A stretch of 64,000 bases of DNA from Pseudodesulfovibrio sp. JC047 (GTDB lineage: Bacteria > Desulfobacterota > Desulfovibrionia > Desulfovibrionales > Desulfovibrionaceae): positions 1-64,000 of the forward strand of contig NZ_WUEH01000019.1 in the NCBI RefSeq assembly GCF_010468615.1, read 5' to 3'. Below, in pieces: positions 4,813-35,493 of this stretch. How positions within the stretch are numbered: the stretch's first letter is position 1; every line of letters starts with the position of its first letter. Position numbers and translations under genes: made by a program. Under the pieces are notes generated by a model. The model did no database searches. It worked only from the letters and a program-made list of their open reading frames with translations, and was not told the origin of the DNA.

Positions 4813-5179
4813 CCCCTCGCCGGGGTGGCGTCTTCGACGACCAGAGAACCTTTTGAAAAAGGTTCTCTGGACTCTCCAAAACTTTTTGGGTCGCTTCGCG
4901 AGGGCTGTCGGCAGCGTGCGTTCGTGTGACTCTTGAAGAGGCGTTGTAAAAAATAGTATTTTTTACAGACTCTATTAAAAAAACCTACAACGTATTTTCC
5001 TGTAGAATCCTCTTACTTCTTTAACCATCCCCTCTTCTATCCTTCTTATCTCTTCAATCTCACCAACGAATGACGTGGGGCCTCGCCGAAGGCGCGATAA
5101 AAAGTTCTGGAAAGGGAGTCCAGAGGGAAAACCTCTTCCAAGAGGTTTCCCCTCTGGCCGTCGGAGACATCTTCTCCCT
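4813..5179. repeat. REP-like hairpin array, tandem unit 1
   Basis: First of two tandem units of about 367 bases. Each unit holds two inverted copies of one roughly 100-bp element. Here the left copy is 4813-4900 and the right copy 5081-5179. The left copy has a perfect 14-bp stem with a 2-base loop (CCAGAGAACCTTTT then its complement). The right copy has an AGAGGGAAAACCTCTT hairpin. Both share the AAAAAGTT-TGG-GAGTCCAGAG core in opposite orientation. The arrangement resembles bacterial interspersed mosaic elements built from REP pairs. Short open frames through it are by-products of the repeat. Confidence 0.8.
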
Positions 5180-5547
5180 CCCCTCGCCGGGGTGGCGTCT
5201 TCGACGACCAGAGAACCTTTTGAAAAAGGTTCTCTGGACTCTCCAAAACTTTTTGGGTCGCTTCGCGAGAGCTGTCGGCAGCGTGCGTTCGTGTGACTCT
5301 TGAAGAGGCGTTGTAAAAAATTCCATTTTTTACGGACTCTATTGAAAAATCTTAAAAACTGTTTTTCTACAAAATCCTCTTACTTCTTTAACCATCCCCT
5401 CTTCTATCCTTCTTATCTCTTCAATCTCACCCAACGAATGACGTGGGGCCTCGCCGAAGGCGCGATAAAAAGTTCTGGAAAGGGAGTCCAGAGGGAAAAC
5501 CTCTTCCAAGAGGTTTCCCCTCTGGCCGTCGGAGACATCTTCTCCCT
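5180..5547. repeat. REP-like hairpin array, tandem unit 2
   Basis: Second copy of the 367-base unit, offset 367-368 bases from the first. The inverted element copies are at 5180-5267 and 5449-5547. Most differences from unit 1 lie in the AT-rich spacer around 5310-5370. The hairpins are unchanged, which suggests a recent tandem duplication or selection on the stems. It ends about 35 bases before the ahcY terminator. Confidence 0.8.
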
Positions 5548-5580
5548 CTCCTCGACAAGTGTTGTTGATGGGGAAAAGAT

Positions 5581-5612
5581 AAAAAAAAAGGGAAGCCGTT
5601 TGGCTCCCCTCG
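5581..5612 (-). terminator. Rho-independent terminator of sahR-ahcY
   Basis: On the minus strand AGGGGAGCC-AAAC-GGCTTCCCT (nine pairs, one G-T) is followed by a run of nine T. It lies about 20 bases beyond the ahcY stop. Confidence 0.9.
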
Positions 5613-5631
5613 ATTTTTCGATCCGCAGTGA

Positions 5632-7062
5632 CTAATAGCGGTAGTAGTCCGGTTTGAAGGGACCTTCTTTTTCGACACCGATATAATCAGCCTGTTCTTT
5701 GGAAAGCGTATCAAGCGTCACACCCAGACGAGCCAGGTGCAGTCGAGCGACTTCTTCGTCCAGTTTCTTGGGCAGAATCATGACGGTGGGTTCGTACTCG
5801 TTTTTGGCCAAATCCATCTGGGCCAGAACCTGGTTGGTGAAGGAGTTGGACATCACGAAACTCGGATGGCCAGTGGCGCAACCAAGGTTGACCAGACGAC
5901 CTTCAGCCAGGACGATCAGGGATTTGCCGGACGGCAGCGTCCATTTGTCAACCTGCGGCTTGACTTCCTTTTTCACGCATTCGGGGTTGCCTTCAAGATG
6001 CAGCATTTCGATTTCGGAATCAAAATGACCGATATTGCACAAAATGGCTTCGTCCTTCATGGCGTCCATGTGCTTGCCGGTCACCACATGGTAGTTGCCG
6101 GTGCAGGTCACAAAAATATCACCACGGGAGGCCGCATCGTTCATGGTCGTGACTTCAAAACCCTCCATGGCCGCCTGCAAGGCGCAAATCGGATCGATTT
6201 CAGTGACCAGTACGCGAGCACCGAAACCACGCATGGACTGAGCGCAGCCCTTGCCCACGTCGCCATATCCGATGACAACCACCACTTTGCCAGCGATCAT
6301 CACGTCTGTAGCACGCTTGATACCGTCAGCCAGGGACTCTCGGCAGCCGTACAGGTTATCGAACTTGGACTTGGTCACGGAATCGTTGACGTTGATGGCC
6401 GGGAAAAGCAATTCGCCATTGCGCTGCATTTCGTACAGACGGTGGACACCAGTGGTGGTCTCTTCCGAGACACCACGGATGACCTTGGCAATATTGGTCC
6501 ACTTCGTGGGATTCGCGTCATAAGAAGCCTTCAGGCGATTCATGACGATCTGAAATTCCTGAACATCATAGGTCTTGTCGAACAAGCTGGGATCTTTTTC
6601 GCATTTGACACCCTGATGAACGAGCAGCGTGGCGTCACCACCATCATCCACGATCAAATCAGGACCGGAACCGTCAGGCCAGGTCAAAGCCTGCTCCGTG
6701 CACCACCAGAAGTCGTCCAGGGTTTCACCCTTCCAGGCAAAAACCTTGGCCATGCCGGAATCCGCAATGGCGGCGGCAGCGTTATCCTGGGTGGAAAAAA
6801 TATTGCAGGATGCCCAACGCAGATCAGCACCGAGTTCGTACAGGCACTTGATGAGCATGGCGGTCTGAATGGTCATGTGCAAGGAACCCATGATTTTCAA
6901 ACCTTTCAAGGGTTTTTCTTCGCCATATTTGTCGATCAGGGCCATGAGACCGGGCATTTCCCGCTCGGACAACTGCATTTCCATGAGGCCCCATTCGGCC
7001 AGAGACAGGTCTGCGACCTTGTTTTCGCATTTCGGGTCGACAGGTAGTACGTTCTTGGACAT
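5632..7062 (-). CDS. ahcY: S-adenosylhomocysteine hydrolase
   Basis: Splits S-adenosylhomocysteine reversibly to adenosine and homocysteine, with bound NAD, in the activated methyl cycle. The 476-residue product has the substrate-site blocks [13 protein letters not shown] and [13 protein letters not shown] near residues 60-95. It has the Rossmann NAD motif [14 protein letters not shown] near residue 270 and the family C-terminus ending PDYYRY. Length matches the bacterial long form, which carries an insertion relative to the shortest members. It is the second gene of an operon with the SahR-type regulator, 28 bases downstream of that gene's stop. A strong terminator follows. Repression relieved by S-adenosylhomocysteine is the expected control. 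Confidence 0.96.
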
Positions 7063-7090: not shown

Positions 7091-8002
7091 TTATTTTTTC
7101 TCGGCCTCGTAGAGGACAACCACGAGACCCATGTTGACGATAAATTCCGTGACAGCTGTCACATCAAATCGTGCTTTCTCCAACCACTCGACCATCTTTT
7201 CCCGTGGGATACCGAGTCGGCGATCTCCATACTCACTCCGCATCCGCTCATTTTCATGTTGGTCGAATTCGGCGATTATCAACCGCCCACCGATCTTGAG
7301 CACACGGCTTATTTCCGTGAGCGCATCAAGTGGCCGCGCCAAATGATGCAAGACCAGCGACACGACCGTACAGTCGGCTTCCCAATCCCGGAGGGGCAGA
7401 TGCGTCATTTCCCCGATGCGCAACGACATGGACGTGTCCTGCGAAAAACGGGCTTCGGCCAGTTCCAGCATCTTGGGCGAGTTGTCCACCCCGATCACGA
7501 TGTCCGACGTCTTGGATAAAATTTCAAGCATGTCACCGGGACCACACCCGATGTCCGCAGCACAGGTACATTCTGGCAACCGAACCTGTATTTCCCTGCC
7601 CAGATTCAATTCACCAAGAACCTCGGCGGTCATGCGATCCCAATCCGACGCAATGTCATCAAAGAATTGCCGCGTCTCAGCGGTCCGCTCGCGAATCACT
7701 CTGTCGGCCCGGTTCCGATCCCGTTGAAAATCAGACTCCCCGGCCAATAGTGAACCAATACCATCAAGGAATTCACGCCCCTGACCTTCTTCACTCGCCC
7801 GGTAAAATGCCCACAGCCCATCACGACGAACATCCACCAGACCAGACTCGGATAAAATTTTGAGATGCCGAGAAATTCGGGACTGGCCCATTTCCATAAC
7901 CTGCACGATTTCACCAACATTCAATTCATATTCTAACAGAACGTTGACAAGTCTCGCGCGGGTGTCGTCTGATAATGCTTTACAATATTTGATTATTTCC
8001 AT
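7091..8002 (-). CDS. sahR: ArsR-family regulator fused to a SAM-methyltransferase-like domain (SahR-type)
   Basis: A 303-residue two-domain protein. Residues 1-75 are an ArsR winged helix-turn-helix: LSDDTRARLVNVLL, then EIVQVMEMGQSRISRHLKIL. Residues about 110-300 are a class I methyltransferase fold with motif I, DIGCGPGD, and VIGVDNSPKMLELA. No metal-binding cysteine pair of the metalloregulatory ArsR type is seen. This architecture next to ahcY matches SahR, which is established in Desulfovibrio as a repressor of methyl-cycle genes sensing S-adenosylhomocysteine. The methyltransferase domain presumably serves as the ligand pocket. A 22-bp palindrome just upstream of the start suggests autoregulation of the operon. 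Catalytic methyl transfer cannot be excluded. Confidence 0.88.
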   Translation of the reverse strand: MEIIKYCKALSDDTRARLVNVLLEYELNVGEIVQVMEMGQSRISRHLKILSESGLVDVRRDGLWAFYRASEEGQGREFLDGIGSLLAGESDFQRDRNRADRVIRERTAETRQFFDDIASDWDRMTAEVLGELNLGREIQVRLPECTCAADIGCGPGDMLEILSKTSDIVIGVDNSPKMLELAEARFSQDTSMSLRIGEMTHLPLRDWEADCTVVSLVLHHLARPLDALTEISRVLKIGGRLIIAEFDQHENERMRSEYGDRRLGIPREKMVEWLEKARFDVTAVTEFIVNMGLVVVLYEAEKK

Positions 8003-8013
8003 GCGCTTTACCT

Positions 8014-8035
8014 TATATCAGGATATCTTGATATA
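8014..8035. promoter_or_regulatory. Palindromic operator, probable SahR site
   Basis: TATATCAGGATATCTTGATATA is a 22-bp palindrome with a single mismatched pair, centred on GATATC and 12 bases upstream of the sahR start. Position and symmetry fit binding by a dimeric ArsR-type repressor covering the promoter of sahR-ahcY. The resemblance to published SahR sites is from memory. Confidence 0.75.
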
Positions 8036-8156
8036 CTGAACAAACCTTCTCTACCTCATGAAGTAGCAGCCGGTCAAGCCCTCTGGCCGGGACTTTGCGT
8101 TGCCCTGACGCGTGTCATAGTCTATAGGATGATTCATACTATATACCGGAGGAAGA

Positions 8157-8903
8157 ATGAGTAAACGTGTTCACATCTTTTTGATTTTTGCCTTGGCCGC
8201 ACTCCCACTGACGGGATGTGGTGTCGCGACACAAAACATCCCTGTTTCCAGTAATCCCAGTGGTGCGCAGGTCTTTGCCGACGGAATGCAAACCTGCACA
8301 ACGCCGTGTTCTGTGGAATTGGAAAAAACGCAAGCGCACATACTGACATTGAAAAAGCCCGGCTATCGGCAGGCAGATGTCCAGATATCACAAAAATACG
8401 ACACTGGCGGCGTGACCCGTGACGCGGTTCAATCCGGCATGTCCAGTTCTTCAATGGGCAGTTCGGTCGAAGGGTCCATTGCAGGTGCGCTTCTTTCTGC
8501 CGAACAAGATGAGGCCAGTGGCAACGCGTATGTGCTGACACCAAGCAGTGTTGTCGTCACGCTGGTGCCGGACTGCAAAACAGGCACCGCACAACCGCAG
8601 CAGGGCACCGTCCAAACAACCGAACCCGCCACCATTGGCTCTGCCATCGAAAAAGACCCTGTCGGTGTTGGCGAAGAAGTCCTGAAGGAAGCCGCCGTGG
8701 CCGCGCCGACCATTGGGACCGAAAAAGAAATAAGTCACCACTCTCACACCTCCACTCACCACAACAGTGACGGGTCCATGTCACAACATTCATCCTCCAG
8801 CTCGGTCAGCGTGGGTGTTCATGTCAACCCGGTAGAAGCGGGACTGGATGCACTCGAATTCCTCGAAGGTGCAGAAAAAAAAGAAGCTGACACCACAAAA
8901 TAA
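8157..8903 (+). CDS. PEGA-domain lipoprotein with His/Ser-rich tail
   Basis: A 248-residue lipoprotein. The lipobox LPLTGC puts the acylated cysteine at residue 21. Residues about 28-80 form a PEGA domain (IPVSSNPSGAQVFADG, then LTLKKPGYRQADVQI) carrying a CTTPC pair that could form a disulfide. The tail around residues 190-225 is rich in histidine and serine (SHHSHTSTHHNSDG). PEGA domains are small beta-folds found in surface and periplasmic proteins. This one is paralogous to the lipoprotein at 10129-10545, down to the SG-AY-LTPS motif. It starts at 8157 after a strong GGAGGA. The function is unknown; envelope attachment and metal binding by the tail are inference. Confidence 0.75.
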   Translation: MSKRVHIFLIFALAALPLTGCGVATQNIPVSSNPSGAQVFADGMQTCTTPCSVELEKTQAHILTLKKPGYRQADVQISQKYDTGGVTRDAVQSGMSSSSMGSSVEGSIAGALLSAEQDEASGNAYVLTPSSVVVTLVPDCKTGTAQPQQGTVQTTEPATIGSAIEKDPVGVGEEVLKEAAVAAPTIGTEKEISHHSHTSTHHNSDGSMSQHSSSSSVSVGVHVNPVEAGLDALEFLEGAEKKEADTTK

Positions 8904-23025: not shown

Positions 23026-23119
23026 GGAAGCGTTTCGTCACCGGTGTGGCGCTTGGTCTTCAAAACCAATGTATGGCAGTGATGTCATGGGCAGGTTCGA
23101 CCCCTGTACGCTTCCGCCA
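23026..23119 (+). tRNA. selC: Selenocysteine tRNA (TCA)
   Basis: Ninety-four bases with encoded CCA. The eight-pair acceptor GGAAGCGT/ACGCTTCC is the extended acceptor of bacterial tRNA-Sec. The anticodon stem TTGGT/ACCAA encloses CTTCAAA, giving anticodon TCA. A long variable arm follows, then GGGCAGG-TTCGACC-CCTGT for the T-arm and G73. It reads UGA as selenocysteine. Its presence implies selenoproteins in this organism, as expected for a Desulfovibrio-type formate dehydrogenase or hydrogenase. The defence operon begins about 320 bases downstream. Confidence 0.95.
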
Positions 23120-23160: not shown

Positions 23161-23437
23161 TGCCAAAAAATTGGTCCCCCCAATAGTCCCCCTATCCATT
23201 GGTATTTCACGGGCCCGCAGTCCCAATCCCGACAGCCTTGTGGTGCTAGCGACTCGTCCCTTCTCGTGGTCGACAACCCTCACCAGAGTTTCTCTAACGA
23301 CTATTATTGCAGCTATTATCCTGCCGCCCCCTTTTTGACAGTCAGTAAAGCCTCAAGCAACTCAATTCCCAAGAAGACGTCTTTAAATTATTGACGATTC
23401 GATGTATAGAGTCAGACAAAGAACAACGAGGTTCCAG

Positions 23438-26302
23438 ATGCCGACTCCGTATCATGCCAAATACTTCGCTCACGACTTGACCATTCAGAAACCTCTTGAT
23501 GGCGTGGAGAGGATCTCACGCTCCCTTTTTGATGCCTGTGTAGACCTCAATCCGCACCAGATAGACGCGGCTCTGTTCGCGCTTCGTTCGCCCCTCTCAA
23601 AAGGTGTCATCCTTGCCGATGAAGTCGGTTTGGGTAAGACCATCGAAGCGGGGCTGCTCCTTTGTCAATTCTGGTCGGAACGAAAACGAAAGATGATCAT
23701 CGTTTGCCCGGCGTCGCTCAGAAAACAGTGGAGCCTGGAACTCTCCGAAAAATTCAACACCCCGAACATCGTGCTCGATGCACGCGCCTACAGGCTTGAA
23801 AAGAAAAACGGCAACATCCAGCCGTTCGAGCAGGACAAGGTCATCATCACCTCGTTCCACTACGCCTCGCGAATGCAAGAGGAAGTGCGGCTGACCAATT
23901 GGGACCTGGTCATCATCGATGAAGCGCACAAACTGCGGAACGCATACCGTCCGAGCAACAAGATGGGGCAGAACCTGCGCTGGGCGTTTGAAGACTGCTT
24001 TAAAGTGCTCCTGACCGCCACTCCCCTCCAAAATTCACTCCTTGAACTCTACGGCCTGTCCACCTTCATCGACGACTACATGTTCGGCGACATCAGCTCC
24101 TTTCGGTCGCAGTTCATCAATAGCGGCGGCGATCTCCCCTTCCTCCGGGAACGGCTGGGCACCGTCTGCAAGCGAACCTTGCGCCAAGACGTGCTGGAGT
24201 ACATCCGCTTCACCGAACGAAAGCCGATCGCCTTCCAATTCCGTTCGACCGACGAAGAACAACGACTTTACGACGCTGTCTCGGAATTTCTCAGGCGTGA
24301 AGAAACATACTGCTTCCCCAGCCGTCAGCGGCACCTCATTAAGCTGATCCTACGTAAGCTGCTTGCTTCGTCCACCTACGCGCTTCTGGGCACGCTCCAG
24401 ACCATGCGCAAACGGCTGGTGGACCTCAAGGAAGGATTCATCACTGAAATCAAGCTTGCCGAAGAGCTCATCGATATGGAGGAGCTTGAAGACGAACTCC
24501 TCGAAGAGGAGGAACTGCTCGCTCTTGAAGATGAAGAGAAAGCCGAGGAAGAGCTGAATCTGGAGAAGGTTCAGGAAGAGATAGACGAGCTCGACAAATA
24601 CATTTTGTGGGCTAAAAATATCCGGGTTGATACGAAATCGAAGACACTCCTCACGGCCCTCGACACTGGTTTTTTCGAAATGAAAAAGATGGGAGCCAAG
24701 CGCCGTGCCTTAATCTTCACGGAATCCCGCCGCACGCAGGATTATCTCAAGGAATTTCTCGAAGCCAACGGATTCGCCAATAAGGTCGTTTCCTTCAACG
24801 GCACCAATTCTGCCCAGGACACCCGCGCCATTTACGATGCCTGGATCAGCAAGAACCAAGGCTCCGGACGTATCAGCGGCTCTCGTCCGATTGATGTCCG
24901 CACCGCGCTGGTTGAGCACTTTCGCGACAACGCCCAGATCATGATCGCTACCGAAGCTGCCGCCGAGGGCGTGAACCTGCAATTTTGCTCGTTGGTCATT
25001 AATTACGACCTGCCGTGGAACCCGCAGCGCATCGAACAACGCATTGGCCGTTGCCATCGTTACGGACAAAAGCACGATGTTGTTGTGGTCAACTTTCTCA
25101 ATGAGCGTAATGCTGCCGACCAACGTGTGTATGAGTTGCTGGAACACAAGTTCAACCTGTTTAACGGCGTATTTGGTTCGTCCGATGCCGTACTCGGCTC
25201 AATTGAATCCGGTGTTGATTTTGAAAAGCGCATTCTGAGCATCTATCAGTCCTGCCGTTCGTCGGAAGAAATTAAGGAAGCATTCGAAGCATTGCAGGCT
25301 GATCTTGAGGAGCAAATCACCAAGAAGATGGAGGATACCAAGAAGCTCCTGCTGGATCACTTTGACGAGGATGTTCATACCCGCCTCAAGGTGCAGCTTG
25401 ATGATGCCCATTCCCAGCTTGATCGTTTCGGCAAGCAGTTCTGGACGTTGACCCGATTTATCCTGCGCGATCTTGCTCGATTTGAAGAGGAGAATCTCTG
25501 CTTCAACCTTGAGCCTTCACCGATTCAGAACGCAAGCCCTGGTACGTATCACCTTATTTCCAAGGATAAGACTAATGTGGCAGGCGAGTACCTTTATCGT
25601 CCGTCGCATCCGCTTGGGGAGCATGTCATTGACCAAGGTAAAGTGTGCGCTACGCCAGACGCCAGTATCCGTTTTGACATTTCCAGCCATCCCACCCGGA
25701 TTGCCATGGTGGAGCAATTGAAAGGCATGAAAGGCTGGCTCACACTCCAGCTCTTAACCATTGAATCTTTCCGCCGCGAAGAGTATCTCCTTTTTTCCGG
25801 CTTTGACGAAAAGATGCAGACGCTTGATCCAGAAGTATGCGAAAAGCTGTTCAACTGCCATGCGCAGGTGTGCGGCAATGGTTGTTCCCTTGAGGGAAGC
25901 CCGTTTGAGCGCCTTGAAGGCGATGCCAAGCAGCACGTCAAAGCGACCATCAGCCGGTCGGCTCATGAGAACAACCGGTTCTTTCATGAGGAACGGGAGC
26001 GGCTCGACCGGTGGGCTGAGGATATGGTCATTGCCTCGGAAAAAGAGCTGGCCGATACCAAGGCGCAGATTAAGGCGCTCAACCGGCAGGCCCGTTTGGC
26101 CACGACCATGGAAGAACAGAAAGAGCTGCAAAAACGGATAGCTGATTTGAAAAAGACCAAGCGCAGGCAACGCCGCAAGATATTTGATGTAGAAGATGAA
26201 ATCGAAGCAAAGCGCGACCATCTAATTGACAGTTTAGAGAAACGGATCAGCAGAAAGACCGACGTGACACCGCTTTTTACCATACAATGGGAAGTCGTTT
26301 AG
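23438..26302 (+). CDS. SNF2/RapA-type helicase of a defence operon
   Basis: A 954-residue superfamily 2 ATPase. It has Walker A DEVGLGKT (about residues 61-68), DEAH (161-164), LLTATPLQN (motif III), a long acidic insertion (EELEDELLEEEELLALE) between the lobes, and motif VI QRIGRCHRYGQ near residue 535. Beyond about residue 600 it is mostly helical with charged coiled coils and ends in a basic segment. This resembles the helicase of helicase-methyltransferase-ATPase defence loci. It probably translocates on DNA rather than separating strands. ATG 23438 is chosen over 23402 because GAGG lies eight bases upstream. It is the first of five co-directional genes; the next starts 9 bases after its stop. 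Confidence 0.85.
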   Translation: MPTPYHAKYFAHDLTIQKPLDGVERISRSLFDACVDLNPHQIDAALFALRSPLSKGVILADEVGLGKTIEAGLLLCQFWSERKRKMIIVCPASLRKQWSLELSEKFNTPNIVLDARAYRLEKKNGNIQPFEQDKVIITSFHYASRMQEEVRLTNWDLVIIDEAHKLRNAYRPSNKMGQNLRWAFEDCFKVLLTATPLQNSLLELYGLSTFIDDYMFGDISSFRSQFINSGGDLPFLRERLGTVCKRTLRQDVLEYIRFTERKPIAFQFRSTDEEQRLYDAVSEFLRREETYCFPSRQRHLIKLILRKLLASSTYALLGTLQTMRKRLVDLKEGFITEIKLAEELIDMEELEDELLEEEELLALEDEEKAEEELNLEKVQEEIDELDKYILWAKNIRVDTKSKTLLTALDTGFFEMKKMGAKRRALIFTESRRTQDYLKEFLEANGFANKVVSFNGTNSAQDTRAIYDAWISKNQGSGRISGSRPIDVRTALVEHFRDNAQIMIATEAAAEGVNLQFCSLVINYDLPWNPQRIEQRIGRCHRYGQKHDVVVVNFLNERNAADQRVYELLEHKFNLFNGVFGSSDAVLGSIESGVDFEKRILSIYQSCRSSEEIKEAFEALQADLEEQITKKMEDTKKLLLDHFDEDVHTRLKVQLDDAHSQLDRFGKQFWTLTRFILRDLARFEEENLCFNLEPSPIQNASPGTYHLISKDKTNVAGEYLYRPSHPLGEHVIDQGKVCATPDASIRFDISSHPTRIAMVEQLKGMKGWLTLQLLTIESFRREEYLLFSGFDEKMQTLDPEVCEKLFNCHAQVCGNGCSLEGSPFERLEGDAKQHVKATISRSAHENNRFFHEERERLDRWAEDMVIASEKELADTKAQIKALNRQARLATTMEEQKELQKRIADLKKTKRRQRRKIFDVEDEIEAKRDHLIDSLEKRISRKTDVTPLFTIQWEVV

Positions 26303-26311
26303 GAGACACCT

Positions 26312-29300
26312 GTGAACGAAAAATACAAACGCCTTATCAAGCTCCTGAAAGAGCTGTTTCAGATAGATCGCCCTGACCTTGATTTCGGTATCTACCGGAT
26401 CATGAACCAGAAGCGGGACGAGATAACCCGGTTTCTGGATAAGGACTTGCTGCCTCAGGTGAAGCGATCCTTTGCCGAGTATGGCTCTGGTGGGCGTGGC
26501 GATATTCAGGAAGAGATGGATGAGGCGATCAAGCAAGCACAAGGACTTGGCGTGAATCCTGATGAGGTGCAAAAAGTTAAAGACCTCAGAGAAAAACTCG
26601 AAGCTGCCGTCGATGTCTCCGAGCTAGAAAACGAAGTCTATTCCCACCTCTACAATTTTTTCCGTCGTTACTACAAAGACGGCGATTTCCTGTCGCTCAG
26701 ACGCTACAAAAAGGACGTCTACGCCATCCCTTACGAAGGCGAAGAGGTAAAGCTCCATTGGGCCAATGCGGACCAGTATTATATCAAGTCTTCCGAGAAC
26801 TTCCGCGACTATACGTTCAAGCTGGGTGAGCTCCCCGAGAAAAAAGGAGAAGACACTCGCAAGACTGTTCATTTCAAGCTTGTTGAAGCTGACACCGAGA
26901 TTGCCAACAACAAGGCGCTTGAGGGGAAAGAACGCCGCTTTGTGCTGTGTGAAGACACACCCATGATCGAAGAAGATGGGGAGCTGTTCATCCGATTTGA
27001 TTACCGCCCGTTTGCCAAGAAGCAGGCACAGAAGAAGCTGAATGAAGCAGCTATAAAGACGCTGGAAAGCAACGTGGAGTTTGCCGGTTGGATTCGTGAA
27101 CTTTTCAAGGAAGACAACGGCACTCCCATACTGACCAAGCACCTCAACACATACACGGCCAAAAACTCTTTCGACTACTTCATCCACAAGGATCTCGGCG
27201 GCTTCCTGCGCCGGGAGCTGGACTTCTTTATCAAGAACGAAATCATGCATCTCGATGACATCGAGGAGGAATCCGTCCCTCGTGTGGAGCAGTATCTGAA
27301 TCAGATCAAAGTGCTCAGACAGATAGCCCACAAGCTCATCAAGTTCCTTGAGCAGTTGGAGAACTTCCAGAAAAAACTATGGCTCAAAAAGAAATTTGTT
27401 GTTGAGACAAACTACTGCATCACTTTGGATCGAGTGCCGGAAGAGCTGTATCCTGAGATATGTGCAAACGATGCCCAGAGAAAAGAATGGGTTGAGTTGT
27501 TTGCGATTGATGAGATTAAAAAAGAATTGGGGATTGAGGGATATTCTGAGCCGTTGACGGAAGATTTTTTACGGCAACAGCAATCATTACCACTAGATAC
27601 AATATTCTTTTCCAACGAGATAAAAAAAGTTGTTTTATCAGGAATTGATAATTATGAAACTAGAAATGATGGTCTTGTAATAAATGGAGAAAATTTTCAG
27701 ACACTAAATTTTCTTTCTCGTCGATACACTAAACAAATTCAATGTACATATATTGATCCTCCCTACAATACGGGAGGAGACGGCTTCGTTTACAAAGACA
27801 ACTATCAACACTCAAGTTGGCTCAGTATGATCAATGATAGGCTTCGACAACTCCCCACCCTAAGTGGGGTTGGAGCACCGTTTTTTGCAAGCGTAGACGA
27901 CAATGAACAAGCCCACTTCAAACAGTGCTTAGATTCTGTTTTTGGCGAATCTTGTTTTGAAACTCAAGTAATAGTGCAATCGAACAAACGAGGGCAAACA
28001 TACCAATCAATCGCTAAAACCCATGAATATCTTATTGTTTATGGGATTGGCTCTGTACCAGAGCTGCACGAACTCCCTAAAGAAGTAGCAAAGAATGCCT
28101 TAAAAGACTCCAAGGGTATATACGAACTGTGGGAACTCAGAAACAGAAATCCCAAATTTGGACGACATAACAGACCTAATCTCTACTACCCGTTCTATGT
28201 CGCCCATGAGACCACTGATAAAAATGGATATGCAAGCGTCTCACTTGCTGAGGATGATGACCACCTGCTTAAGGTTACTCCTAAAAACAGTGAAGGGGTA
28301 GATTCCTGTTGGCGATGGGGCACTGAAAAAGTGCAACAGGCATTAACTGAAGAGCCTTTGTCTGTTTTAGTCGCCAAACAAAAGCGAGATGGCGGCTGGA
28401 ACATATATGAAAAAGCGAGAAAAGGGACCAAAAAGGCTAAGTCGATTTGGGAAGAAACTGAAGTTATAAATGAGCAAGGCACAGTTGAGTTGCGGCATCT
28501 TGGTTTTAGAGAATTTGGTTTTCCGAAGCCTGTAGGACTTCTCAAAAAAATAATTCAAGTTGGTGCCAATAAAAAAGATTTGATTTTGGACTTTTTCGCA
28601 GGTTCTGGGACAACAGGCCATGCAGTGATTAGTAAGAATCACGAAGATGGCGGGAAGCGCAAATACATCCTAGTCGAAATGGGGGACCACTTTAAGACGG
28701 TTATCCTCCCACGATTAAAAAAGGTAATTTACTCTAGCGACTGGCGAGATGGGAAACCTGTTTCACGTCAAGGCTCTAGCCATATGTTTAAGTATATCTC
28801 CCTTGAATCATACGAAGACGCCCTCAACAACCTCACTATCAAGCGCACAGACACACAAAAGGGGCTCCTCGACACCTCCCTCGCCCTCAAAGAAGAGTAC
28901 ATGCTCTCCTACATGATGGACATGGAGACCGAGGGAAGCGCTTCCCTGCTCAACGTGGACCGCTTTGACGATCCGTGGAACTACACCATGAAGATCGCCA
29001 CCGGCAGTGCTGGGGAAACCAAGGTGCGCCCCGTCGATCTGGTGGAGACCTTCAACTACCTCATCGGCCTCACCGTGATCCGCCGTGATTTCATCCGAGG
29101 CATCGAGGTCATCGAAGGCACCAGCCCGGACGGCAACAACGTACTCGTCATCTGGCGCAACACAAACGAGACCAATAACGAACAACTGGACGAATTCTTC
29201 CGCAAACAGGACTACAACACCCGCGACACCGAATTCGACCTCATCTACGTCAACGGCGACAACAACCTCGAAAACCTTCGCCGCCCCGACCAAACCTGGA

Positions 29301-29359
29301 AAGTCCGGCTCATAGAAGACGATTTCAAACAACTCATGTTTGACGTGGAGGATGTGTAA
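26312..29359 (+). CDS. Beta-class N6-adenine DNA methyltransferase (Mod-like) of the defence operon
   Basis: A 1015-residue protein. A helical N-terminal third of unknown function is followed by the methyltransferase. The catalytic motif DPPYNTGGDG lies near residue 481 and the SAM motif FFAGSGTTGHAV near residue 762. That order (catalytic first, SAM last) with recognition sequence between them is the beta class, as in type III Mod. It starts at GTG 26312 after AGGAGA. Bases about 27400-28850, covering the recognition region, are visibly more AT-rich than the two ends, suggesting exchange of the specificity segment. It would modify host DNA so that the Res-like protein spares it. Confidence 0.88.
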   Translation: MNEKYKRLIKLLKELFQIDRPDLDFGIYRIMNQKRDEITRFLDKDLLPQVKRSFAEYGSGGRGDIQEEMDEAIKQAQGLGVNPDEVQKVKDLREKLEAAVDVSELENEVYSHLYNFFRRYYKDGDFLSLRRYKKDVYAIPYEGEEVKLHWANADQYYIKSSENFRDYTFKLGELPEKKGEDTRKTVHFKLVEADTEIANNKALEGKERRFVLCEDTPMIEEDGELFIRFDYRPFAKKQAQKKLNEAAIKTLESNVEFAGWIRELFKEDNGTPILTKHLNTYTAKNSFDYFIHKDLGGFLRRELDFFIKNEIMHLDDIEEESVPRVEQYLNQIKVLRQIAHKLIKFLEQLENFQKKLWLKKKFVVETNYCITLDRVPEELYPEICANDAQRKEWVELFAIDEIKKELGIEGYSEPLTEDFLRQQQSLPLDTIFFSNEIKKVVLSGIDNYETRNDGLVINGENFQTLNFLSRRYTKQIQCTYIDPPYNTGGDGFVYKDNYQHSSWLSMINDRLRQLPTLSGVGAPFFASVDDNEQAHFKQCLDSVFGESCFETQVIVQSNKRGQTYQSIAKTHEYLIVYGIGSVPELHELPKEVAKNALKDSKGIYELWELRNRNPKFGRHNRPNLYYPFYVAHETTDKNGYASVSLAEDDDHLLKVTPKNSEGVDSCWRWGTEKVQQALTEEPLSVLVAKQKRDGGWNIYEKARKGTKKAKSIWEETEVINEQGTVELRHLGFREFGFPKPVGLLKKIIQVGANKKDLILDFFAGSGTTGHAVISKNHEDGGKRKYILVEMGDHFKTVILPRLKKVIYSSDWRDGKPVSRQGSSHMFKYISLESYEDALNNLTIKRTDTQKGLLDTSLALKEEYMLSYMMDMETEGSASLLNVDRFDDPWNYTMKIATGSAGETKVRPVDLVETFNYLIGLTVIRRDFIRGIEVIEGTSPDGNNVLVIWRNTNETNNEQLDEFFRKQDYNTRDTEFDLIYVNGDNNLENLRRPDQTWKVRLIEDDFKQLMFDVEDV

Positions 29360-30523
29360 ATGGAACGCCACTTATCCGAAATTTCGATTAAGGGATTCAA
29401 GTCGATTCGAAACCTGGAAGCCCTCAAGCTGAAAGACATCAACATCCTCATTGGAGCCAATGGCGCGGGCAAAAGTAATTTTGTCGAGTTCTTCAAAATG
29501 CTCCGCTCAACCATGATGGGCAACCTCGACAGCTTCATAGAAAAAGGCGGGGGTATTAACGATTTCCTCCACAACGGACCTAAGCGCACAAAGCAGATTG
29601 AAGCTTCGCTTATGGCTGGAGGCGAAAGAGAGACATTTCTCCTCACACGGTCATCAAGAGAGACTGCGGTTGCACAAGATATGGGAGGAAAGGTTCTCAC
29701 CGGTGCGGCACTAGGCGCGATTCTTGGTGCTTTTCTGGGCGGGAATAAGGGAGCTGCATGGGGAGGCACTGCAGGAGCTATTCTCGCAGGGGAAGGATCA
29801 GCCCGAGACACCAAGCAACCTGTAGAAGTTGAAAGCACCTTGAGAAATGCCGACAAAACCAAAGAGGCTTTTGTCGATATTGCCCCCTACCATTTCCAGG
29901 ACACAAGCGCTCACTCTGCAATGCGGACATCTGAAATAATTCAAGATAACCAATTCCTGCGTATGGATGCCGCCAACATTGCTCCTTTTCTGCTACGCCT
30001 CAAAAATGAAGAGCCGAGAGCTTACGATGACATTATCGAAGCAATTCAAACAGTAGCTCCTTTCTTCAAAGACTTCACAATGAATGTGGTCAAACGAGGA
30101 GAAAAAGAAAGCGTCAACTTGGAGTGGTACCAGAAGGGTTCTGAAAATTACCCTATGCAACCACACCACCTGTCTGATGGAACCATCAGATTCATATGCC
30201 TGGCCACCGCCCTATTGCAGCCCAATCCCCCGGCCATCATCATTATCGACGAGCTTGAGCTTGGCCTGCATCCCTTTGCCATCAGCATCCTTGCAGAACT
30301 TATCGGAGCAGCAGCAGAAAAATCCCAGCTTATCATTGCCACCCAATCAGCTTCTCTTGTCGATCACTTCGACCCGGAAGATGTGATTGTTGCGAACAGG
30401 AATGATGGAGCATCGTCTTTTAGACGACTACGTACCAACGAGCTCAATGTGTGGTTGGAAGACTACACTCTCGGCGACCTCTGGCGAAAGAACGTCTTTG
30501 AGGGGGGGCCAAGGTATGAATAA
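29360..30523 (+). CDS. AAA ATPase (OLD/RecF-like) with an internal glycine zipper
   Basis: A 387-residue ABC-type ATPase. Walker A is GANGAGKS (residues 32-39), signature-like LSDGTIRF, Walker B IIIIDELELGLHP, and an ATQSASLVDHF switch region. Residues 108-147, where relatives carry a helical insertion, form a glycine zipper (GAALGAILGAFLGG, then GTAGAILAGEG), a pattern typical of membrane-inserting or oligomerising helices. The start codon abuts the methyltransferase stop, and the next gene overlaps this one by 8 bases, so all are coupled. With the following TOPRIM-like protein it resembles split OLD or PARIS pairs. Membrane action by the zipper is inference. Confidence 0.8.
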   Translation: MERHLSEISIKGFKSIRNLEALKLKDINILIGANGAGKSNFVEFFKMLRSTMMGNLDSFIEKGGGINDFLHNGPKRTKQIEASLMAGGERETFLLTRSSRETAVAQDMGGKVLTGAALGAILGAFLGGNKGAAWGGTAGAILAGEGSARDTKQPVEVESTLRNADKTKEAFVDIAPYHFQDTSAHSAMRTSEIIQDNQFLRMDAANIAPFLLRLKNEEPRAYDDIIEAIQTVAPFFKDFTMNVVKRGEKESVNLEWYQKGSENYPMQPHHLSDGTIRFICLATALLQPNPPAIIIIDELELGLHPFAISILAELIGAAAEKSQLIIATQSASLVDHFDPEDVIVANRNDGASSFRRLRTNELNVWLEDYTLGDLWRKNVFEGGPRYE

Positions 30524-31193
30524 CAAACTTACAGTGGTTGTTATTGTCGAAGGGCCTACAGAAAAAGGGTTTGTCAACAATGTGCTCGCCCCGGAGTTTG
30601 GCGCGAAAAACATCTTTTTCTATGCAACTATAATTGGAAAAGATAACCACAAGGGTGGAGACGTTAAGTTTGACCGGGTGTCCCCATTTTTCAGAAATTT
30701 TTTAAAACAACGTGCCGATACAATTGTAACCACCATGTTTGATTTCTTTCGAATCGACACCAAGTGGCCAGGTATTTCTGACGTAACTGCGAATATGAAA
30801 GCGCATGATATTGGCGTCGCGGTAGAAAAGGCTACCTATGAAGCTGTTAAAGCAGCTTATCCTGACTTACGAGTTGCTGATCGCTTAATTCCGTATATTT
30901 CCATGCACGAATTTGAAGCCTTGCTGTTCAGCTCTCCTGAATACCTAGCCTTGGGAATCGACGTAGAAGAGAAACATATTCAAAACATAGTAGACAGCTC
31001 CGGCGAGCCCGAAGAAATCAACACAGGCCCGGAAACAGCCCCTGCAAAACGAATCCAAAACCTGTGCCCCAGAAAATACAAAAAGACGATTGAGGGACCG
31101 AACATCGCCCAAGCAATTGGCTTGGAGACAATCCGTCAACAATGCCCCCATTTCAACTCCTGGCTCGTTAAACTCGAAGCCTTAGTGGATTAA
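30516..31193 (+). CDS. DUF4276 (TOPRIM-like) protein
   Basis: A 225-residue protein beginning VVVIVEGPTEKGFVNNVLAP, the DUF4276 N-terminus. Its glutamate corresponds to the TOPRIM-type acidic residue. The family hallmark YISMHEFEALLFSSPE lies near residue 130, and TMFDFF corresponds to the second acidic site. DUF4276 proteins are commonly paired with an upstream AAA ATPase. The start ATG overlaps the ATPase stop by 8 bases, so stoichiometric synthesis is likely. A nuclease or toxin role triggered by the ATPase is inferred by analogy with OLD-family and PARIS partners. Confidence 0.78.
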   Translation: MNNKLTVVVIVEGPTEKGFVNNVLAPEFGAKNIFFYATIIGKDNHKGGDVKFDRVSPFFRNFLKQRADTIVTTMFDFFRIDTKWPGISDVTANMKAHDIGVAVEKATYEAVKAAYPDLRVADRLIPYISMHEFEALLFSSPEYLALGIDVEEKHIQNIVDSSGEPEEINTGPETAPAKRIQNLCPRKYKKTIEGPNIAQAIGLETIRQQCPHFNSWLVKLEALVD

Positions 31194-31198
31194 TATAC

Positions 31199-34100
31199 AT
31201 GCCTATCCCGTTCTATAAACGTCTTGCCCTCAACAAGTGGCTTTTCAGCCTCTTCGGCGCAAAGAAATTCGAAGACCTTGCCAAGCATCTTACTGATGAC
31301 AGTCTTGAAGGTTTTGACGAAGACAACATCAGCAGATTCGTCCAGGTCCTCATCCCTCATCTTCCGATTGGCTCTTCGCTGACCAAAGAACGGCTTCTGG
31401 GATACGACGAAAACATCGTCAGGCATTGGAAGACTATGGCAGAACCTCGCTCTCATGGCAGTAAGCTTATTACCCCTAAATACTTCCAGTACCTCTCCCT
31501 GCTTTTTACAGAAATTTATTTAGAGAGATATTTTCAGGACAAGGAAAGCCTGCTGGGTGAACTGAATGCATTTCTGCTCAAGTTTAACGACGGATTGAGG
31601 AATGCTGATAAAGTCAGCAAATTCAAAATCAATGAGCTCAACAAACTCGCCTTCTGGAATGCCACCGGATCGGGCAAGACGCTGCTCATGCACATCAATA
31701 TTCTTCAGTACAAACACTACCTGAAGAAATACGGGCACGAACGCGACCTCAACCGGATCATCCTGCTCACGCCAAACGAAGGGCTGTCCCTCCAACATTT
31801 AGGAGAATTTAAGCTCTCCAAAATGCCCGCGCACATGTTCCGAAAGGACCAAACGAGCCGCCATCTGAAGCAGATCGAAATCATCGACATCCACAAACTC
31901 AAAGACGATTCCGGCGACAAGACCGTGGCCGTTGATTCCTTCGAGGGCAACAACCTCGTGCTCGTCGACGAAGGCCATAAAGGTTCGGGCGGCAAGGAGT
32001 GGATGGAAAAACGCAACAAACTCTGCGAGCAAGGCTTTTCTTTCGAATACTCGGCAACCTTCGGCCAGGCGCTCAAGGCTGCGAACAAGCCGAAGCTGAC
32101 CGAACAGTATGCCAAGTGCATCATTTTTGACTATTCGTATCGCTATTTCTACAAAGACGGTTACGGCAAAGACTACAAAATCCTGAACCTTTCCGAAGAA
32201 ACTGACCAAGAGAGAATGGATTTATATCTCTCAGCCTGCCTGCTTTCATTCTACCAGCAGGTGCGACTATTCGAGGAAGGGCACAAGAAATTGCGTCCGT
32301 TCAACATCCACCGCCCCCTCTGGGTCTTCGTCGGCGGCAGAGTTAATGCTGTCCGCAAAGAAAGAGGGCAAGACGTCTCGGACGTTACTGCTGTCCTGCG
32401 GTTTCTCAGCATATTTACCAAAGACAAGAAGGCCAGCTCTGCTGCTCTGGATCGTATCCTCAGCGGAACTGATGGCCTCACTGATGCTAATGGTCGCAGT
32501 ATTTTTGCTGCCACGTTTGGGCATCTGAAGATTGCGAAACTCACAGCTGAAGAAGTTTTCGATGATATCTTGAAGCGTGTCTTTCACGCGCGAACTCCGG
32601 GCAAAATCCACGTCGAGCATCTCAAAGGCGGTGACGGTGAAATCGCACTCAAACTGGGTGAAGGAAACGATCCCTTTGGTGTGATCAATGTTGGCGACGC
32701 CAAAAAGCTCTGGAAGCTTTGCGATAAGCTGGATGAGCTTGTCGCCATTGAGAAAGATTTTTCGGAATCTCTGTTCCAAAAAATTAACGACGAAGATGGT
32801 GGCATCAATCTGCTTATTGGTTCAAAGAAGTTCACCGAGGGCTGGAATAGCTGGCGCGTCAGCACCATGGGGCTGATGAACATCGGCCGAAGCGAAGGGT
32901 CTGAAATCATACAGCTTTTCGGACGCGGCGTGCGTTTGAAGGGATATGATTTTTGCCTCAAACGAAGCAAAGAGGTTCGTGATGTTCCAAAGCCCGACTT
33001 CATCACTACCTGCGAAACGCTTAATATCTTCGGTGTCCGTGCCGACTACATGCAGCAATTCAAAGAATTTCTTGAAGAGGAAGGCCTTCCCGCCGAAGTC
33101 GAAGAGTTTGTGCTTCCGGCCATCCGTAACCTGGGCAAGGTCAAGCTCAAGGTGCCAAGCGTTTCTGACGATGTGAACTTCAAAAAAGAAGAAAGAACGA
33201 CTCTGGCCACTCCGCCTGAGAGGCTCACCAAACGGCCTTTCACCCTCGACTGGTATCCCAAGATCCAAGCCATCGTTTCCGAGGCTCACCAAGGGGCTTT
33301 TGCCGATGGCGAAAAGCATGAAGTCTGGAGACTCGAAGAGAGACATTTAGCCTTCATCAATTGGGACGAGATTTTCTTTGAGCTCGTTCGCTACAAAAAC
33401 GAACGTAGCTGGTTTAATTTCAATCTCAACAAGGAGCTGCTGAAAGACCTCATTCTTGAAGGCGGCTGGTTCAAGCTACAGATTCCAGAAGAAGAAATTG
33501 AACCCACCAGTTTCACGAATATTCGACGTTGCCAGGAAGTCATCGTCGCCTTGCTTAAGAAGTATTGCGATCGGTTCTACGGGTACAAGAAAGACGAGTT
33601 TGAGAAGCCGCATATGGGCTACAAGGAAATCACTCCTGATGATCCCAATTTCTTTGACGAGTACCGGATTGCTGTCGACAAGTCTGCAGAAAACATCATT
33701 AGGGAAGTCCAAGAACTTCAGGAAGCAATCAACAACGGCGACCTCAAAGACCAAGGCCTTCAGCTTCAATCTTTTGTTTTCCAACAGCACCTCTACTATC
33801 CACTCCTGCATGTAAACGGGAAGGAAACATCAGCTCTCGTCAAAGTCACGCCAGTAGACCTCAATGAAGGAGAAAAGGACTTCGTCTTCGACCTCCGAAA
33901 ATTCTACGACACTAACACAAGTTGGTTCGAAGGCCGCGAGCTTTATCTGTTGCGCAACCTGAGCAAAGGCAAAGGCATTGGTTTCTTCGAAGCCGAGAAT
34001 TTCCATCCGGACTTCATCCTCTGGCTTGTAGAAGACGGCAAGCAGCACATCGCTTTTGTAGACCCTAAGGGCATTCTGCGCCTGCGAGGCCTGGAAGATC

Positions 34101-34318
34101 CCAAAATCATGTTCTTCGAAAAGGTCAAAGAGCTTGAGCATCGCCTCAAAAATGACAACGTCACCATGACCTCATTCATTGTCTCGAACACACCTCTGGA
34201 AGAAGTCAAATGGTGGTCAGGTGGCGATGCCGTTGAATTTGGCAAGCGCAATGTGCTATTTCAGAAAGAAGATAAAAGGATATACGTTAAAACGCTTTTA
34301 GAGGAACTTATCGCATAA
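31199..34318 (+). CDS. Type III Res-like helicase-endonuclease
   Basis: A 1039-residue protein. The superfamily 2 helicase part has Walker A ATGSGKT (from about residue 155), a DEGH variant of motif II (from residue 257) and motif VI QLFGRGVRL. Near the C-terminus, HPDFILWL with D938 and FVDPKG with D955 and K957 fit a PD-(D/E)xK nuclease core. This is the layout of type III Res subunits. It starts 5 bases after the DUF4276 stop and is the last gene of the operon. No terminator is visible before the IS element. It most likely cleaves unmodified invading DNA with the Mod-like partner. Confidence 0.85.
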   Translation: MPIPFYKRLALNKWLFSLFGAKKFEDLAKHLTDDSLEGFDEDNISRFVQVLIPHLPIGSSLTKERLLGYDENIVRHWKTMAEPRSHGSKLITPKYFQYLSLLFTEIYLERYFQDKESLLGELNAFLLKFNDGLRNADKVSKFKINELNKLAFWNATGSGKTLLMHINILQYKHYLKKYGHERDLNRIILLTPNEGLSLQHLGEFKLSKMPAHMFRKDQTSRHLKQIEIIDIHKLKDDSGDKTVAVDSFEGNNLVLVDEGHKGSGGKEWMEKRNKLCEQGFSFEYSATFGQALKAANKPKLTEQYAKCIIFDYSYRYFYKDGYGKDYKILNLSEETDQERMDLYLSACLLSFYQQVRLFEEGHKKLRPFNIHRPLWVFVGGRVNAVRKERGQDVSDVTAVLRFLSIFTKDKKASSAALDRILSGTDGLTDANGRSIFAATFGHLKIAKLTAEEVFDDILKRVFHARTPGKIHVEHLKGGDGEIALKLGEGNDPFGVINVGDAKKLWKLCDKLDELVAIEKDFSESLFQKINDEDGGINLLIGSKKFTEGWNSWRVSTMGLMNIGRSEGSEIIQLFGRGVRLKGYDFCLKRSKEVRDVPKPDFITTCETLNIFGVRADYMQQFKEFLEEEGLPAEVEEFVLPAIRNLGKVKLKVPSVSDDVNFKKEERTTLATPPERLTKRPFTLDWYPKIQAIVSEAHQGAFADGEKHEVWRLEERHLAFINWDEIFFELVRYKNERSWFNFNLNKELLKDLILEGGWFKLQIPEEEIEPTSFTNIRRCQEVIVALLKKYCDRFYGYKKDEFEKPHMGYKEITPDDPNFFDEYRIAVDKSAENIIREVQELQEAINNGDLKDQGLQLQSFVFQQHLYYPLLHVNGKETSALVKVTPVDLNEGEKDFVFDLRKFYDTNTSWFEGRELYLLRNLSKGKGIGFFEAENFHPDFILWLVEDGKQHIAFVDPKGILRLRGLEDPKIMFFEKVKELEHRLKNDNVTMTSFIVSNTPLEEVKWWSGGDAVEFGKRNVLFQKEDKRIYVKTLLEELIA

Positions 34319-34405: not shown

Positions 34406-34672
34406 ATGAAGAAGTCCCGTTATTCCGACAGTCAAATTTTGAGTATTTTGAAGCAGGCCGAAAACGGCGTGCCCGTGGTTGAGCTTTGCCGTGAACACGG
34501 TATGAGTAGCGCTACCTTCTATAAATGGCGTTCCAAATATGGCGGCATGGACGCTTCTCTGATGGCTCGCATGAAGGAGCTGGAGAAGGAAAACCGACTT
34601 CTCAAGCGCATGTATGCCGAAGAAAAGATGAACGCCGAAGTCGTTGCAGAGGCACTTGCAAAAAACTGGTAA
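34406..34672 (+). CDS. IS3-family transposase OrfA
   Basis: An 88-residue DNA-binding protein with helix-turn-helix [24 protein letters not shown] and a leucine-rich C-terminal helix. It resembles OrfA of the IS407/IS511 side of the IS3 family. The run of six A at 34660-34665, just before the stop, is a site for -1 frameshifting into OrfB to make the full transposase. Confidence 0.92.
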
Positions 34673-35493
34673 GGCCGTCTCGTCGCCGCGAGATGGCCAA
34701 AAAAGCCGTGAAAAGGAAACGGTTGAATATTCGGCAGTCCTGTGAAGCTTTCGACATTAGCCAGACATGCTACAGGTACGAACCAAAATTGTCGGCCGAG
34801 AATGAACGTGTGGCGGATTGGCTTATTCGTCTGACCACCAATCAGCGCAACTGGGGATTCGGACTATATTTTCTATACCTGCGTAACGTCAAAAAGTTTG
34901 GCTGGAATCACAAACGCGTGTACCGGATTTATTGCGAACTGGAATTAAACATGAGAATCAAGCCTAAAAAACGTCTAGTACGCGAGAAGCCTGAACCGCT
35001 CGCCCAACCTAAGGCGATCAACCAAGCGTGGTCTATGGATTTCATGCACGACCAGTTGCGGGATGGCCGCAGCTATCGATTGTTCAATGTGATTGACGAC
35101 TTTAACCGGGAAGGCTTGGGCATCGAAGTGGACTTTTCATTGCCAGCTGATCGGGTGATCCGCTCCTTGGAACAAATCATTGAATGGCGTGGTATGCCAC
35201 AGGCAATTCGTTGCGACAATGGTCCTGAATATATTAGCCATCGGCTTCAGATTTGGGCGAAGAAAAAGGATATCCGGTTTGATTACATCCAGCCAGGCAA
35301 GCCACAGCAAAATGCATATGTTGAACGATTTAATCGGACTGTGCGTTATGACTGGCTCAACCAATATTTGTTTAAAAGCATACAAGAGGTTCAGGAGCAT
35401 GCCACCAAGTGGCTTTGGACATACAACAATGAACGACCGCATCTTGCCCTTGGGGGGATCCCCCCAAGGGCAAGACTGACCGAGGTAGCGTAG
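34666..35493 (+). CDS. IS3-family transposase OrfB (DDE integrase domain), expressed by -1 frameshift
   Basis: Provides the catalytic domain. The DDE triad is visible in [20 protein letters not shown] and [15 protein letters not shown]. The frame is open from 34525, upstream of the slip site. A stand-alone start could be the ATG in [12 protein letters not shown] (34693), but fusion to OrfA by the -1 shift at the A6 run is the usual mode. The coordinates begin just after the slip. It ends 39 bases before the right inverted repeat end, as in related elements. Confidence 0.9.

Follow-up and report, generated by a model that had tools for sequence, protein, structure and literature searches.

A glycine zipper in a HEC-01A-type defence ATPase appears to be an isolated graft onto a nuclease-linked pair

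Some described defence systems couple an ATPase to a nuclease. In PARIS, a hexamer of the ATPase AriA holds AriB, a TOPRIM tRNase, until the phage trigger (excerpt of PMC12409363), and pairs of an OLD-type ATPase and a nuclease are described as back-up layers in BREX (excerpt of PMC12839542). We analysed such an ATPase and its partner, a DUF4276 protein, in Pseudodesulfovibrio sp. JC047 (RefSeq assembly GCF_010468615.1, contig NZ_WUEH01000019.1). Positions 1 to 64,000 of its forward strand, the whole stretch of DNA analysed, are called the window. The ATPase contains a glycine zipper that is real, unusual, and strikingly regular, and that is private to this one protein among those read. The three features that matter first are:

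29360..30523, forward strand: AAA_21/OLD-type ABC ATPase, HEC-01A, 387 residues, intact open reading frame (PADLOC HEC-01A E 4.5e-124; Pfam AAA_21 4.5e-33)
29681..29800, forward strand: glycine-zipper segment, residues 108-147 of the ATPase; seven glycines at i+4 spacing span residues 115-139 (29702-29776)
30516..31193, forward strand: DUF4276 partner, HEC-01B, 225 residues, probable TOPRIM-type nuclease (PADLOC HEC-01B 4.3e-72; PF14103 2e-51)

Comparison with described systems

The DUF4276 gene starts within the end of the ATPase gene, with an overlap of 8 nucleotides. With a HEC-01A-type ATPase and an adjacent HEC-01B in order, the pair is, by its profile matches, the known candidate system HEC-01. 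It differs from the others in that the window ATPase, alone among 81 aligned proteins, has the zipper, and in that the interval holding it is 83 residues long, against 37-79 (median 64) in the 80 homologues. Candidates embedded in Hma were named by guilt-by-embedding, and the excerpt of that source names HEC-06, not HEC-01 (PMC12988326). As side observations, one Bacteroidota contig (L022) carries two similar HEC-01A ATPase genes near each other (5122-6273 and 7444-8559), and HEC-01A/B pairs occur on two IMG/VR viral contigs (L099 and L100), so that prophage-like elements may be another vehicle of the module.

PARIS resembles the window pair in combining an ABC ATPase with a separate nuclease-type partner. 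The window ATPase matches the AriA model (1.7e-29) and the family profile matches AriA chains (E 1.9e-7). However, AriA is not its best family, since the HEC-01A models rank far above it, and the partner is a DUF4276 protein with no match to a solved AriB, a comparison made by sequence only; its five PADLOC matches are all to HEC-01B, although 5 of 18 DUF4276 members match OLD-like_TOPRIM. The ATPase is also related to the MAD3 ATPase of MADS, but its 94.7 bits on the NCBIfam model lie far under the cut-off of 420. Type III-A CoCoNuT loci likewise have a glycine zipper within a defence locus with an ATPase, in that a glycine-zipper protein lies near an AAA+ ATPase; in the excerpt of that source, however, a separate protein next to the ATPase carries the zipper at its C-terminus, and the ATPase belongs to the SpoVK/CDC48 kind (PMC11090510). 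In the open-licence literature, we found no paper on DUF4276 and none joining glycine zipper, AAA ATPase, and anti-phage activity; glycine zippers and phage defence together led to a paper on type VI secretion.

The zipper segment, its absence from homologues, and its origin

Glycines 115, 119, 123, 127, 131, 135, and 139 are spaced by exactly four residues, followed by an alanine at 143. Residues 115-128 read GAALGAILGAFLGG and residues 136-146 read GTAGAILAGEG. A run of seven glycines at this spacing was found in none of 20,000 composition shuffles of the protein, the longest shuffled run being six, which occurred once. The segment reaches six GxxxG per 40 residues, a count met in 0 of 5,000 shuffles. 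Among 92 open reading frames of the ATPase family the runner-up (L005) had three, and these lie ahead of the point where that protein probably starts. Hence, an earlier sequence-only reading of the window was correct in placing a zipper at residues 108-147, and chance low complexity is unlikely in view of the 20,000 shuffles. The Pfam family Gly-zipper_YMGG (PF13441) also has repeated GxxxG tetrads, but the window segment sits inside an ATPase and scores under the family cut-off of 28.9 bits, both in the scan of the protein (16.8 bits) and in the scan of its own genome (22.7 bits, second of nine matches). Matches to this family are not rare, as 10 of 14 control genomes also have them. The pattern is thus genuine, and the segment is formally outside Gly-zipper_YMGG.

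Homologues were taken from 60 relatives, 395 genomes of the phylum, 296 and 294 genomes of two other groups, three single genomes, GTDB contigs, viral contigs, and plasmids, at a blastp threshold of E <= 1e-40, relaxed to 1e-30 for the final alignment of 81 proteins. The best 20 or 30 matches of each genome search were made into loci (numbered with the prefix L), which covers the weaker relatives in part; three of the genome searches scored 4-6 candidates per genome, and six strong matches that lacked a locus were fetched, read, and added later. Before the final alignment, homologues also had to have an open frame of 300 residues or more, and the partial L039, L079, L082, and L116 were dropped. 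The 80 homologues include near-duplicates (e.g. L070/L071, L077/L078, L091/L092, and L006/L016) and one protein, L166, that ends early at a contig end.

None of these 80 homologues has the zipper, and the equivalent interval holds at most two GxxxG. An earlier set of 70 proteins gave intervals of 37-73 residues, and the final recount added 11 homologues, all zipper-less. The closest relatives show 55-61% identity over the C-terminal half, and the full-frame ones among them lack the zipper. Plasmids gave 15 near-full matches at 35-47% identity, of which five were read; the other ten span 1062-1092 bases, less than the window ATPase's own length. A DUF4276 open reading frame is present at 76 of the 80 loci within the short flanks available, those without one in such flanks being L016, L020, L096, and L167. 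The absence from all homologues that the sequence-only reading had named as a refuting outcome, and had linked to chance low complexity, is what these 80 showed.

The periodicity of the segment lies at the level of the protein. Its seven 12-nucleotide units have a mean likeness of 5.95 out of 12, against 5.91 +- 0.27 for the same peptide written in the codon use of the operon, and 2,162 of 5,000 null sets are at least as alike as the real units. Tandem Repeats Finder reported nothing. The synonymous-codon null and this blank rule out a recent tandem DNA repeat, here or in a donor. A transposon scar was also rejected, as only a 9-nucleotide direct repeat and a 13-nucleotide imperfect inverted repeat surround the segment. 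No convincing donor or copy was found elsewhere in the genome, where the best candidate is 43% identical over 35 residues of a 374-residue frame. With the zipper as query, the 60 related and 395 phylum genomes returned only the segment itself. The same query against plasmids and phages returned nothing, but the low-complexity filter of BLAST was on and these blanks say little.

Could the zipper be a frameshift or an assembly artefact that masks an ordinary loop? Its presence in a single genome among those searched would fit. Yet homologues match the other frames of the region at chance level only (E 0.31 or worse), on which grounds a frameshift origin was rejected, and a random frame would not give a Gly/Ala periodicity with varied codons. 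We regard such an artefact as very improbable.

Position in the ATPase and possible roles

Three motifs of the ATPase locate the segment:

29453..29476, forward strand: Walker A, GANGAGKS, residues 32-39
30170..30184, forward strand: signature motif, LSDGT, residues 271-275
30236..30259, forward strand: Walker B region, IIIIDELE, residues 293-300, where P299L is unusual, nearly all relatives having DEPE

Walker A residues G32, N34, G35, G37, K38, and S39 are invariant in eight aligned sequences. At residue 299 (30254-30256) the window reads DELELGLHP, against DEPELGLHP in nearly all relatives. The segment lies between Walker A and the signature motif, as the sequence-only reading had it. The predicted model of the window ATPase is poor, with a mean predicted local distance difference test (pLDDT) of 50.9 and values of about 25-37 in the zipper. 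Since the zipper had been aligned over neighbouring strands, a zipper-less homologue was modelled. In its good predicted model, the site falls in a loop predicted with low confidence, which follows the third strand of an SMC/Rad50-like head and precedes the strand YHFxD. In SMC/Rad50 proteins the coiled coil emerges behind YHFxD; the suggestion that the segment occupies the place of the coiled insertion of OLD/RecF-like ATPases was thus inexact. Burial in the ATPase core is not suggested by the homologue model either, and the zipper sits in what looks, on this model, like an exposed loop.

We favour, tentatively and at a little under even confidence, the explanation that the zipper serves a PARIS-like ATPase as a packing loop specific to its lineage, within a HEC-01A/B pair carried as cargo between the type III DNA methyltransferase (Mod) and restriction subunit (Res) genes. 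The ATPase would be the sensor half of the pair, and the trigger might be infection or inhibition of the restriction-modification system. Once triggered, it would free the DUF4276 nuclease or switch it on. The zipper would be a lineage-specific substitute for the poorly conserved loop after the third strand of the N-lobe, probably a small-residue helical hairpin packing on itself, on another ATPase subunit, or on a partner protein. Such packing would tune assembly or sensing, while the killing would be done by another part.

The output of the system is, by analogy, likely nucleolytic. This is suggested by the pairing with DUF4276 (76/80), by the acidic residues among the positions invariant in 18 DUF4276 members including the window copy (E12, G13, E16, D76, E132, and E134), and by a weak link to OLD-like_TOPRIM, matched by 5 of the 18 members (best E 4e-4), the window copy not among them. 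The analogy with PARIS and OLD systems, in which a sensor ATPase is combined with a nuclease output, also speaks against any need for the ATPase to have its own membrane output. A zipper beyond chance at the site of a low-confidence loop makes a packing or oligomerising element plausible, and this part of the sequence-only reading stands.

Several observations weigh against the packing loop and its nucleolytic setting. The absence of the zipper from the other homologues read means that conservation shows no sign of use. The exposure of the zipper and its hairpin fold are indirect, given the poor model of the window ATPase itself. The OLD-like_TOPRIM link is missing in 13 of the 18 DUF4276 members, and the DUF4276 profile found no relative among solved structures, its one row being a ribosomal protein at E 0.11. 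Finally, the window ATPase departs from the family at 5 of the 59 columns with 90% or higher conservation, where the median is 1. This puts it level third among 81 rows, and a truncated protein is among those ranked above it. The five departures are Y91E, E108M, H180Q, L241M, and P299L; P299L adjoins the Walker B glutamate and E108M stands at the edge of the zipper, and together they fit relaxed constraint.

These departures also bear on a second explanation, in which a stray fragment landed in a disordered loop and the zipper is idle and tolerated in an ATPase under relaxed constraint. That the segment is private to one of the aligned proteins, that its site is a low-confidence loop in the homologue, and that conserved columns, including those of P299L and E108M, have changed more often than the median would all fit. 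Yet the open reading frame and the partner are intact, and an unbroken sevenfold glycine spacing would be unlikely to last in an idle loop, unless an old motif was captured recently. We hold an idle loop to be possible, with some doubt.

The other half of the sequence-only reading, a membrane-acting suicide output, found no support. Here an activated hairpin would insert into the membrane or anchor to it, and depolarise the cell or tether the complex. The pattern resembles membrane-inserting families, the segment is the second of the nine Gly-zipper_YMGG matches in the genome, albeit under the cut-off, and a loop as in the homologue model would suit such a role. But its hydropathy is modest, the best 19-residue stretch (residues 108-126) scoring 1.54 against 1.69 in the Walker B strand region of the ATPase, so that the motif is what speaks for a membrane role and hydropathy gives no help. 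In addition, the zipper is absent from 80/80 homologues and the family has a probable nuclease partner. We consider a membrane output unlikely. A combined scheme, in which the ATPase captured a zipper hairpin in its N-lobe loop and exposes it when nucleotide drives movement of the head, so that a nuclease-based abortive module gains an output that inserts into or tethers to the membrane, would be a long shot.

The Mod-Res junction and what the finding means

The pair lies between Mod and Res, in an operon that also has a DrmD-like helicase:

23402..26302, forward strand: DrmD-like SNF2 helicase (PADLOC DrmD 4.9e-207; NCBIfam DrmD_b 687.1 bits)
26312..29359, forward strand: type III DNA methyltransferase, Mod (PADLOC MTase_III 1.4e-230)
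31199..34318, forward strand: type III restriction subunit, Res (PADLOC REase_III 1.2e-214)

The presence of both Mod and Res identifies a type III restriction-modification system. The DrmD_b score, on which a link to DISARM was tested, lies under its cut-off of 950. A Mod match at 1e-100 was found in 14 of 297 genomes of the phylum, including this one, and 12 of the 13 others were read. The ATPase-DUF4276 pair is in none of these 12 Mod stretches, and three of them (L143, L144, and L145) have the DrmD-like helicase. Their Mod-Res junctions are empty in L143, L146, and L151, and hold Fic in L144 and L145 (Pfam), HepT with a nucleotidyltransferase in L147 (Pfam; a similar pair by eye in L148 and L150), and DUF559 in L152 (Pfam); that of L154 has, by eye, a pair resembling HicA/HicB. 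The junction of L153 has no ATG-started frame of 70 residues, and the stretch of L149 ends before any Res.

Conversely, the pair is present in L024 and L025 with the operon absent within 19.5 kb. An Aeromonas plasmid has the order of the window (methyltransferase, ATPase, DUF4276, DEAD/DEAH helicase), a second one has SNF2, ATPase, DUF4276, and methyltransferase, and an Ideonella plasmid has methyltransferase, ATPase, DUF4276, and Mrr. In Nostoc and Acinetobacter plasmids, the pair lacks such restriction-modification neighbours in the stretch shown. The junction contents and these contexts suggest that the pair is movable cargo, often lodged in restriction-modification operons, and the Mod-Res junction resembles a cargo slot in which exchangeable modules of an abortive or toxin-like kind tend to sit. 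We found nothing on this idea in the open-licence literature.

Two further observations concern the borders of the operon. A tRNA-SeC gene (23026-23119) lies just upstream and plausibly marks the boundary of an island or an integration. Directly downstream of Res, two overlapping frames (34406-35493) hold transposase genes (HTH_Tnp_1 and rve), IS3-like by eye.

The zipper resembles an isolated addition to a known kind of nuclease-linked defence pair, not a shared membrane-killing device. If the loop is used, the N-lobe loop of OLD/SMC-like defence ATPases would be a graft site, able to take up new elements for interaction or for the membrane with the ATPase core untouched. An idle loop would be a caution that a striking motif of a defence protein may belong to that protein only. 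The more general result is the setting, with the Mod-Res junction as what looks like a slot for swappable abortive or toxin-like modules.
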